From positions 1 to 52,007 of the forward strand of contig JAITFP010000083.1 in the NCBI GenBank assembly GCA_031281275.1: a stretch of DNA of 52,007 nucleotides. The letters are read 5' to 3'. Position numbers and translations under genes: made by a program. Source of the DNA: Candidatus Fibrimonadaceae bacterium (lineage in GTDB: Bacteria; Fibrobacterota; Fibrobacteria; Fibrobacterales; Fibrobacteraceae). The notes beneath the pieces are model-generated. The model worked only from the letters and a program-made list of their open reading frames with translations. It was not told where the DNA came from and searched no databases. Below, piece by piece: positions 9,374 through 49,842 of this stretch (its first letter is position 1; every line of letters begins with the position of its first letter).

Positions 9374-9747
9374 TTATACACACAGGCGAAATAGAGCTTG
9401 CAGGTGAGGCATAAACACAGCAAATATAGACGGCAAACCGTGCATTACAGCCGATTGAAAGGCAATGAAAATGGCGGTTGGAGTCAGGTCGGAATCTACA
9501 AAAAATTCTCCCGATGGGAAGAATTTTCTATATTTACATTCAAATATGACTTTGGGCAATAAAACAATTTTTGGCAGGGCTTGCGGTGCAAGCTCCAAAA
9601 ACGGTTTTTCCAACCTGCCTTTAATAGCTTCATACGTGCCAAATAAAGCCATGTTTTTTCCGTTGGGCAAAAATCGCTCCAAGTCAAAGATGAGCAATTT
9701 TAGCATTGTTTCTGTCGCAACCAGAGGCGATTTATTAACCCTTGCGA
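9374..9747 (-). pseudogene. 5'-truncated TetR-like regulator remnant
   Basis: A minus-strand frame of about 124 codons ends in a proper stop and has no plausible start: its upstream end runs straight into the poly-C tract. The sequence (SPLVATETMLKLLIFDLERFL, then SGEFFVDSDLTPTAIFIAFQ) resembles the ligand-binding helices of a TetR-family regulator. The N-terminal helix-turn-helix is missing. I read it as a regulator cut by the event that placed the poly-C tract and the FISUMP cassette. The family call is tentative. Confidence 0.4.
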
Positions 9748-9765
9748 CCCCCCCCCCCCCCCCCC
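9748..9765. repeat. Poly-C tract (18 C) upstream of the FISUMP lipoprotein
   Basis: Eighteen C residues between the broken TetR-like gene and a CCCGATT repeat, 82 nt before the ATG at 9848. It is too far from the start codon to cause a coding frameshift, so any effect would be transcriptional. Confidence 0.85.
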
Positions 9766-9770
9766 ATCGT

Positions 9771-9807
9771 CCCGAACCTCGATTCACCCGATTTAAGGAT
9801 TTTCCCG
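9771..9807 (+). repeat. CCCGATT-type dispersed repeat, copy 1
   Basis: Reads CCCGAACCTCGATTCACC CGATTTAAGGATTTTCCCGA and shares most bases with 29518-29558. With the inverted copy at 11248-11283 it brackets the FISUMP lipoprotein gene. Further copies are at 29518, 29931 and 31292. Confidence 0.75.
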
Positions 9808-9847
9808 AAAAAACAGTTTCCCTTTCCCTTAACAATAGGAGTTCACT

Positions 9848-11128
9848 ATGAAAACTAACCGTTTTCTCTCGTTAGCGGCATTTTTTGCCATGGCATTAAC
9901 CCTTTTCGCTTGTTCAAGTGATGACCCTTCACCGCCGCCGAGCGTGGAGCCTTCAAGCGATTCCTCTGGTGCAAATCAGCAGGTTTTTTGCAAACTAACC
10001 GCAGGCACTTGTTCGCAGATGTCGCTTTCCACTTGTATGGAATTGGTTAATGCAGGTGCGGCACAAATAGTGTCGAATTGTACAACAGAAGAACCACCAC
10101 CGCCCCTTCAATCCAGTTCAAGTAATGGCGTAACCATTATTGGCTATTGCGATTATGGACCAATTCAAGCAAATGGAGATGGCGGTTGTTTTCCTATGGC
10201 TACGGCAGATGATGAGGCTAATTGTGCAATGTGGGGCAAGGTTGTAAGTTCTTGCGGTACTGCTCCTTCATCTAACTCGGTGCCTTCAAGTTCGTCCAAT
10301 CCGCCTTCACCTTCGTCTAGTTCAAGACCTTCAAGTTCATCCAATTCTACTACGCTTTCTTCGTCTAGCTCGGTGCCTTCAAGCAGTAGTGTAGGTATTT
10401 TTGGCTATTGTGATTATGGACCTATTACCGAGTATGGTGGCGGTTGTTTTGCTATGGCTACGGCGGCTGATAAAGCTAATTGTGAGCTACCTGACAATGG
10501 TGGCAAAGTGGTAAGCTCCTGCCCTTCTTCGTCTAGCTCAAAGCCTTCAAGCAATAGCGTAGGTTCTTCGTCTTCCACAGCCCAAAATACTTCTTGCCTA
10601 AACGGTACATTCACAGATCCTCGCGATAACAAGACTTACAAATGTGTGAAAATTGGCACCCAAACTTGGATGGCACAGAATTTGAACTATTGTCCGCCAG
10701 ATGGATGCTACTTCGTCGATGGTAAGCGCGATACTTACGGTGTTCTTTATCCTTCTTTCCCGGGGTCTGTTTGCCCTTCTGGTTGGCATTTGCCCAGTGG
10801 TACAGAATTTGATATTCTTATAGATTATGTAGGCGGCTCCACCACAGCTGGAACTAAGCTGAAAGCAAGCGGCGGATGGCTCAATGCTGGGAACGGCAAA
10901 GACAATTACGGATTTTCAGCTTTACCAGGTGGCTACTTAGATAAAAAAGACAACGTAATCTACAATGTCGGTAGCGAGGGTTATTGGTGGTACACAAGTA
11001 CTGGTTACGTCGCTGGTTTTGATGTTACGCAATACAATTATCTGCTTATAAGTGCTGACAACGCGACTACTCGTAAGCTGGTATCACCATATAGAGATTT
11101 TTGTTCCGTGCGTTGTATTCAAGATTAA
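9848..11128 (+). CDS. FISUMP-domain lipoprotein with Cys-rich repeats and Ser-rich linkers
   Basis: 426 residues. A lipoprotein signal (LTLFACSS, Cys at about 22) is followed by three related Cys-containing units. Units 2 and 3 begin GYCDYGPI and end GKVVSSC; unit 1 (about residues 46-78) is a degenerate version. Poly-Ser/Pro linkers separate them. The C-terminal 170 residues form the FISUMP domain: FTDPRDNKTYKCVKIGTQTW and MAQNLNY, then CPSGWHLPSG, YGFSALPGGY and SVRC. The family is greatly expanded in Fibrobacter and is presumed surface-exposed; its ligand is unknown. The RBS TAGGAG precedes the ATG. The gene sits alone between inverted CCCGATT repeats and behind a poly-C tract, so it looks like an inserted, possibly phase-variable unit. 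Confidence 0.9.
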   Translation: MKTNRFLSLAAFFAMALTLFACSSDDPSPPPSVEPSSDSSGANQQVFCKLTAGTCSQMSLSTCMELVNAGAAQIVSNCTTEEPPPPLQSSSSNGVTIIGYCDYGPIQANGDGGCFPMATADDEANCAMWGKVVSSCGTAPSSNSVPSSSSNPPSPSSSSRPSSSSNSTTLSSSSSVPSSSSVGIFGYCDYGPITEYGGGCFAMATAADKANCELPDNGGKVVSSCPSSSSSKPSSNSVGSSSSTAQNTSCLNGTFTDPRDNKTYKCVKIGTQTWMAQNLNYCPPDGCYFVDGKRDTYGVLYPSFPGSVCPSGWHLPSGTEFDILIDYVGGSTTAGTKLKASGGWLNAGNGKDNYGFSALPGGYLDKKDNVIYNVGSEGYWWYTSTGYVAGFDVTQYNYLLISADNATTRKLVSPYRDFCSVRCIQD

Positions 11129-48565: not shown

Positions 48566-48587
48566 AATATAGTAATTTTTCTATATT
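48566..48587. promoter_or_regulatory. Divergent -10 boxes between gpsA and a small ORF
   Basis: AATATA (48566-48571) is the gpsA box on the minus strand; TATATT (48582-48587) faces the other way and ends 10 nt before the ATG at 48598. Both match the leaderless pattern. Confidence 0.55.
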
Positions 48588-48597
48588 TACCCGAACT

Positions 48598-48768
48598 ATG
48601 ACCCTCAGCCATAAAGTTTGCTCCGTAGAGCCTCCACAGGAGGCTCTGAGCAATAATTTTATAGCTGACGCAATTTTTTATTTATATGTACGTACATATA
48701 TGTTATATGCACATATACGTACGCATGTAATGCATTGCTCCCCCCCCCCCCCCCTACATAATGGGTAA
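48598..48768 (+). CDS. Possible small ORF reading through the poly-C tract
   Basis: 56 codons: begins MTLSHKVCSVEPPQEALSNN, continues FIADAIFYLYVRTYML and passes through the C run as Pro codons to a TAA at 48766. It starts 10 nt after a -10 box. With one C fewer it would instead run to a TGA at 48785-48787 that overlaps the diguanylate cyclase ATG (ATGA). It may be a leader ORF or a remnant; the product resembles nothing I know. Confidence 0.35.
   Translation: MTLSHKVCSVEPPQEALSNNFIADAIFYLYVRTYMLYAHIRTHVMHCSPPPPLHNG
48627..48647 (+). other. Perfect 9-bp hairpin in the leader region
   Basis: AGAGCCTCC and GGAGGCTCT separated by ACA; GCTC and GAGC outside can extend the stem. It holds a buried GGAGG. 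Too far from a U-tract to be a standard terminator; could be an attenuator or a repeat. Confidence 0.5.
48683..48700. promoter_or_regulatory. 18-bp perfect palindrome upstream of the poly-C tract
   Basis: TATATGTACGTACATATA, inside about 50 bp of nearly alternating purine-pyrimidine sequence (48684-48735). Suitable as an operator for a dimeric regulator of the downstream gene, or as an unusual-DNA segment. Confidence 0.5.
48740..48754. repeat. Poly-C tract (15 C) in the putative diguanylate cyclase promoter
   Basis: Placed between TTGCTC (48735-48740) and CATAAT (48757-48762), an interval of 16 bp, which is close to the optimum for -35/-10. The ATG follows 21 nt after CATAAT with TTGGAG as the ribosome binding site. 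Length changes would move the spacing. Confidence 0.8.
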
Positions 48769-48783
48769 TTTTTGGAGTATTAA

Positions 48784-49842
48784 ATGACGAATATTCTAAA
48801 GAGAATAGGAACTTGGATTTTTTTAGGACCGGTTTTGAACGAGCCATTTAATATAGATAATATCCTGAAAGTTGTATTTGTAAATATAATTGCAATACTT
48901 GGAACTTTTTTCCTAGTGCTTTTTTTCACGCCCCTCTTTTTACAGGGAGTTTATCCCATTCTTTATCCTGTAGCGGCTTATATTTTAGCATTTATTTTTG
49001 TTGCAATCTTTATAGCTATTCATACAAACAAAGGGATAGAACATTTTAATGTTGTAAAAACTATTGTCGTTATAAGTATTACACTCTTTTACGGGTTTAT
49101 TTATGCAAAAGTCATTTATGGCGATATATGGTCGTTTTTGTTTCCAATTGCAGTTATTTTCCTTATGAATATTTTTTGGGGATCTATCTTCTGCGTATGT
49201 TATTTCTTGATAATGCTGAGTGTAGAATTTGTTTTTAAGATTCATAGCTGGGATTTATTTTATCGCTACGTTTGTATCTTTTGGTCACAGGTAATTCTGG
49301 TAAGCTCTTACGAGGCACTGAGAATGTGGTATAACAAAAGAATGCAAATAGACAGAGAAAAAATAGAGATGCTCAGCATAACAGATCATTTGACCAAACT
49401 TTACAATCGCAGGCATTTTTCAAATATCATAGACAAAGAATTTGCAAGGGCAATTAGGCAAAAGGAATGTTTATCTTTTTTGATGATAGATGCAGATGAA
49501 TTTAAAAACTATAATGATACTTATGGGCATTTGAATGGCGATGAACTGCTCGTTTCGCTTGCGGAAATTTTTAAGGGAATAGTTAGGCGTTCTGAAGATT
49601 TAGTTTTTCGCATGGGTGGCGAAGAATTTGGCGTTTTGCTTCCGAATACCGATTTCAAGGGAGCTTTTTCAATAGCCGAAAAAATAAGGGAAGAGGTTCA
49701 AAACGGAACAAAAGTAACCGTTAGTGTGGGTTTAGCCTGTGTTTACCCTAAGTTTGGCGAAAATTCGGACGAGTTGCTAAAACGAGCAGATAGCAATCTT
49801 TATAAAGCTAAAGATATGGGTAGAAACAAAGTTGTTGGCTAA
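48784..49842 (+). CDS. Membrane diguanylate cyclase (GGDEF)
   Basis: 352 residues. Five or six hydrophobic helices (about 35-185) form a membrane sensor, then a GGDEF domain from about 200: ITDHLTKLYNRRHF, DADEFKNYNDTYGHLNGDEL and the active-site GGEEF (about 277-281). The inhibitory site RSED sits five residues before it, so product inhibition by c-di-GMP is expected. It condenses two GTP to c-di-GMP, controlling adhesion or surface behaviour. Weak TTGGAG site; the poly-C tract ends 29 nt upstream. Confidence 0.92.
   Translation: MTNILKRIGTWIFLGPVLNEPFNIDNILKVVFVNIIAILGTFFLVLFFTPLFLQGVYPILYPVAAYILAFIFVAIFIAIHTNKGIEHFNVVKTIVVISITLFYGFIYAKVIYGDIWSFLFPIAVIFLMNIFWGSIFCVCYFLIMLSVEFVFKIHSWDLFYRYVCIFWSQVILVSSYEALRMWYNKRMQIDREKIEMLSITDHLTKLYNRRHFSNIIDKEFARAIRQKECLSFLMIDADEFKNYNDTYGHLNGDELLVSLAEIFKGIVRRSEDLVFRMGGEEFGVLLPNTDFKGAFSIAEKIREEVQNGTKVTVSVGLACVYPKFGENSDELLKRADSNLYKAKDMGRNKVVG

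Follow-up and report, generated by a model that had tools for sequence, protein, structure and literature searches.

A poly-C tract most likely inside a leader reading frame upstream of a diguanylate cyclase gene, and the family of such tracts in a genus of uncultured gut Fibrobacterota

The run of C's upstream of a diguanylate cyclase (DGC) gene in a Candidatus Fibrimonadaceae bacterium most likely belongs to a small leader ORF that is translated, and not to a promoter, and it is on balance probable that slippage in the poly-C of this leader decides whether the ribosomes translating it reach the start of the gene. The DGC gene would appear to be one of about 40 in this genome that are wired with a leader and a poly-C tract. 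The window analysed is a stretch of 52,007 nucleotides, one whole contig (JAITFP010000083.1) of a 2.7-Mb, 79%-complete MAG (GCA_031281275.1), and its features are listed in Table 1.

Table 1. Features of the poly-C loci in the window
Feature	Position	Strand	Basis or remark
Poly-C tract, C17, truncated by the contig start	1..17	+	Upstream of the lipoprotein gene 48-437
Second example in the window	9528..9851	+	Box 9528, leader ATG 9546, C18 9748-9765
CTATATT, -10 of the leader promoter	48581..48587	+	Genus consensus TTTCTAYATT-N-ATG
Leader ORF, 56 codons at C15, traverses the poly-C	48598..48768	+	Stop TAA 48766-48768, 15 nt before the DGC ATG
Predicted hairpin in the leader	48627..48647	+	Fold of 48598-48830; comparable hairpins in other leaders
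Poly-C tract, C15	48740..48754	+	Sequence count, shuffles
Leader stop if the run were C16, TAA	48759..48761	+	22 nt before the gene
Predicted hairpin, DGC Shine-Dalgarno GGAG in the stem and ATG in the loop	48769..48802	+	
Membrane GGDEF diguanylate cyclase gene, 352 aa	48784..49842	+	Pfam PF00990, E 4.2e-44
Leader stop if the run were C14, TGA	48785..48787	+	Overlaps the DGC start codon (ATGA)

There are exactly three homopolymers of 9 or more in the window, and despite its AT-rich composition all three are of C, on the + strand, and upstream of a + strand gene. Chance can be excluded for the C15 run, because the expectation from shuffles for poly-C of at least 10 is only 0.02 matches. That the internal runs are a sequencing artefact was also ruled out, given that they have unique flanks, are oriented, and occur in the same position between species, although the assembled tract lengths, coming from short-read MAGs, may be wrong by one base or more. 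A gene homologous to the lipoprotein gene 48-437 sits behind a C16 run in genome G008 (L156). At the C18 tract, the leader ends at a TGA (9849-9851) that overlaps, as ATGA, the start codon of the lipoprotein gene at 9848, which encodes a Fib_succ_major protein; at C19 this leader would stop 51 nt short.

Counting C runs that begin after a different base, this MAG has 46 of 10 or more and 42 of 12 or more; several of these are contig-end artefacts in GC-rich junk, and the runs of C≥12 number about 40. With one genome sampled per species, runs of C≥12 are present in 11 of the 12 genomes of the genus, and runs of C≥13 in 10 of the 12 and in G140, while there are otherwise 0–2 per genome among the 81 genomes of the family that were sampled. 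In the 75 loci that have a gene with a Shine-Dalgarno (SD) start downstream, this gene begins 19–327 nt past the run and shares its strand with the C's; matches in the opposite orientation are without an SD. The products have a hydrophobic N-terminus in 60 of the 75 cases, many with a lipoprotein-like Cys, and the Pfam domains among them include Fib_succ_major, PEGA, GLUG, FGE-sulfatase, and beta-barrel. The tract genes are mostly cell-surface ones, mainly encoding surface lipoproteins.

At the ends of some contigs (L198, L207, L088, L076, L079) there is poly-G or poly-C with GC-rich junk beside leader ORFs, which is consistent with read failure at the tracts. Such contig-end runs (one of 64), being GC-rich junk, should not be counted as real. 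About 24 runs of C≥13 (L229–L242), often with GC(A/G)AA coming next, are also present in genome G140, from a second genus within the family; the leader promoter box was not seen in this held-out genome, and its tracts may possibly be an independent system. A repeat, TTGTCTGAACC..GATTC..CCCGATTT, often recurs behind runs (L040, L050, L133, L163) and gives a TGA in one of the frames.

Alignment of the upstream flanks of the tracts reveals a common start, CTATATTTAC-N-ATG. A strong TTTCTAYATT box, mostly 6–12 nt before the ATG, is found in 79 promoters of the genus, in which no -35 consensus is present, and this box is the general promoter of the genus, with a near-leaderless start. The box with an ATG is present within 240 nt upstream of 50 out of 87 tracts, compared with 4/87, 3/84, and 3/59 in the controls, and in 44 of these 50, where 7.4 (sd 2.4) would be expected, the ORF from this ATG reaches the run without a stop. 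The exact box is absent from the other 37 of the 87 tracts and the frame is closed in six of those that have it. In the held-out congeneric genome G010, the box is found at 10 of 14 tracts, all 10 of the leaders are open, against 1.8 expected, and 8 out of 8 loci have one or two frames open to the gene.

Substitutions between nine leader copies are evenly spread over the three codon positions (407/461/461). Purifying selection on the leader peptide was rejected on this absence of codon-position bias, and it is therefore translation, not the peptide, that appears to matter. A hairpin about 30–50 nt after the ATG is seen in leaders of unrelated sequence (44 leaders, median z -1.8). In L206 (1522–2178), the same leader module of promoter, ATG, and hairpin is present without a C run and continues in frame into a 218-aa ORF; the module therefore also serves as the plain 5' end of a gene.

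The DGC gene is preceded by such a leader ORF, short and with a promoter of its own, the box of which also precedes gpsA and dnaN in the window. The ORF reads MTLSHKVCSVEPPQEALSNN... and then PPPP, and a homologue of this leader precedes another tract (L073), as seen in the flank alignment. At this and other tract loci, the leader ORF contains a repeat whose length would shift the position of the leader stop. The leader RNA (48598–48830) folds unusually well (z -6.2), and no intrinsic terminator was found near the DGC gene. In the predicted hairpin at the gene start, the stem holds the SD and the loop the ATG, so that a ribosome coming through in the C14 frame could unfold this structure. Whatever the frame, however, the leader ends no more than 22 nt from the start codon, and because of this the phases of the DGC gene may differ little.

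Between the run and the gene, at least one frame is open in 69 of the 75 loci, compared with 41.2 (sd 3.2) in shuffles and 32 of 75 on the reverse strand; with similar loci removed the figures are 35/40 versus 11/40. Counting only the loci with exactly one or two open frames also gives 69 of the 75, where the mean of 200 shuffles is 39.8 and the maximum 49, and there is no locus among the 75 in which all three frames are open to the gene start. Stop triplets have a density of 0.055 in the first 15 nt past the run and of about 0.03 thereafter. As assembled, the leader frame runs through to the gene in 9 of the 26 leaders whose start was mapped. Occlusion of the ribosome-binding site as a general property of tract genes was rejected, as there was no difference from 78 control genes, and an intrinsic terminator or attenuator between run and gene is a weak signal (7/75 versus 3.1 expected) and not general.

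In the mechanism that is proposed, transcription would start at the CTATATT promoter (48581), and ribosomes would start at the near-leaderless ATG (48598) and read the short ORF into the C run, the sequence of the leader peptide being irrelevant. Depending on the length of the run modulo 3, they would either terminate within a few codons of leaving the run or read on as far as the start of the next gene, the translation of which would thus be coupled or uncoupled, and perhaps its transcription too, through the avoidance of polarity. For the DGC gene, a run of C14 (or C11, or C17) would bring the leader to its end at the ATGA on the start codon, opening the hairpin over the ribosome-binding site, and with C15 or C16 the leader would stop 15 or 22 nt before the start. 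Coupling at ATGA overlaps has been experimentally tested in other prokaryotes (PMC6728339).

A length-variable switch is a natural idea for the C15 run, and the original prediction placed 15 C's in a promoter spacer between TTGCTC and CATAAT, with the start codon 21 nt further on. The run is real and there are indeed 21 nt from CATAAT (48757–48762) to the ATG, but TTGCTC (48735–48740) takes in the first C of the run and the interval between the hexamers (48741–48756) is made up of 14 C's and TA. In the Bordetella fim genes the C run sets the promoter spacing, and a comparable switch here, with the run setting the distance from a -35 (or activator site) to the -10, seems unlikely. There is a TTGCTC-16-CATAAT at the DGC locus, and the bases preceding the tracts are T-rich and end in A or G (TTTTR). 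In this genome (G000), 34% of loci have a -10-like hexamer in the 8 nt that follow the run, compared with about 10% elsewhere, and the implied spacer shows a local peak at 17 (8/31 loci); such a hexamer also follows the run in 4 of 8 loci in G009. It is not enriched in G006–G008, however, and the TAA/TAG-type stops of the frame model would likewise yield TA-rich starts after the run. A -35 consensus is missing from the promoters of the genus, and the TTGCTC/CATAAT pair is absent from a consensus promoter scan, in which the + strand pair that was returned uses TATATT at 48582. Dependence on spacer length was rejected from -10 scores against the total spacer, since permuting the tract lengths among loci had no effect on the fit to a 15–19 bp spacer (p 0.3–0.7). 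In the DGC orthologue of G005, at a contig edge, the C run ends 4 nt before the ATG, and there is therefore no space for a -10. Together with the position of the run, where an open leader ORF with a promoter of its own comes to its end, these results speak on balance against the Bordetella-like spacer that had been predicted, which keeps a small likelihood at this one locus.

Frame need not be involved if the C run were an mRNA length rheostat that pairs or binds with an sRNA, a protein, or G-rich ribosome-binding regions. The run does lie within the predicted transcript, many of the leaders are structured, that of the DGC gene strongly so, and pairing between a homopolymer and an sRNA is known for H. 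pylori tlpB (PMC8295292), but a rheostat leaves unexplained why the leaders are open and why one or two frames, and never three, are open to the gene, which makes it very improbable. The tracts might instead be neutral, the outcome of a lineage-specific expansion of C runs in leader modules spread by recombination, with no role in switching. Their restriction to one genus and G140, the existence of the leader modules as related copies, and the random appearance of the observed frames, with about a third of the mapped leaders reaching the gene, would all fit with this. Neutral runs would not, however, be expected to stand so consistently in front of genes that are mostly for surface proteins, nor to show frame patterns resembling those left by selection, and this too is a quite unlikely explanation. 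The reading in which leader ribosomes are steered by frame remains the preferred one.

The identification of the gene product as a c-di-GMP synthase, also part of the original prediction, is plausible. In addition to the Pfam match, the translation contains a GGEEF, with an RxxD motif five residues upstream of it, which would be in keeping with a DGC. That the enzyme could switch an adhesion programme is a conjecture of the original prediction. The best named relative, 66% identical, is from a Candidatus Fibrimonadaceae bacterium MAG. In the relative Nx346_bin40 (L059), the junction between gpsA and the DGC gene is kept but without the approximately 190 bp of leader and tract, the DGC gene beginning directly after the ancestral promoter. 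The leader and run have therefore either been gained in the lineage of the window or lost in Nx346_bin40.

The nearest precedent, by analogy, would be pil1 of Streptococcus gallolyticus, where a repeat in a leader peptide switches a surface operon via an intrinsic terminator (PMC3894217). As in pil1/pil3, the repeat here falls within a short leader ORF served by a promoter of its own; in the streptococcal case slippage shifts the leader stop relative to the surface-protein gene and leader translation sets expression, as is proposed for the tracts described here. In that system the repeat unit is GCAGA, two pilus loci are involved, and an intrinsic terminator takes part, whereas here the repeat is a homopolymer of C, the leaders are near-leaderless, the loci run to dozens, and a terminator is not a general feature. 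Poly-C tracts are also found upstream of start codons in Bordetella fim (PMC12952627), and the likeness lies in a run of about 15 C's ahead of genes for surface proteins, but here the tract is at the end of a leader ORF and there is no -35 consensus. In H. pylori tlpB-hp0102, too, a signalling gene has a homopolymer in its transcribed leader, although this is a G run in an untranslated leader, acting via the sRNA RepG in a single operon (PMC8295292). Slippage likewise alters the reading frame near the 5' end in genes with homopolymeric tracts in their 5' ends (PMC2831843), where the run belongs to the gene itself, whereas here the leader ORF that holds it is separate. A c-di-GMP enzyme also undergoes phase variation in the case of Clostridioides difficile pdcB/pdcC (PMC9286219), there through DNA inversion and with a phosphodiesterase, here, as proposed, through slippage and with a cyclase.

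Phase variation has been documented mainly in pathogens. Nothing on it was found for Fibrobacteres and termites in the literature collection searched, and a Fibrobacteres phylogenomic paper makes no mention of it. If the frame switch is real, expression should track the length of the run modulo 3, and heterogeneity of C runs at the level of reads should be visible in existing gut metagenomes. It is also a caution that the assemblies of these genomes break or are mis-called at the switches themselves. Across this genus of uncultured gut Fibrobacterota, there could, more tentatively, be a contingency system in which a cassette of promoter, leader, and poly-C, placed before dozens of surface-protein genes and at least one c-di-GMP synthase, steers ribosomes by frame whatever the peptide, to give a mosaic of surface and signalling states. 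The leader-ORF design is so far known, in the literature found, from one streptococcal pilus system, and its use here would give a symbiont lineage near the termite-gut Fibrobacterota a large repertoire of switches, with about 40 loci in each genome.
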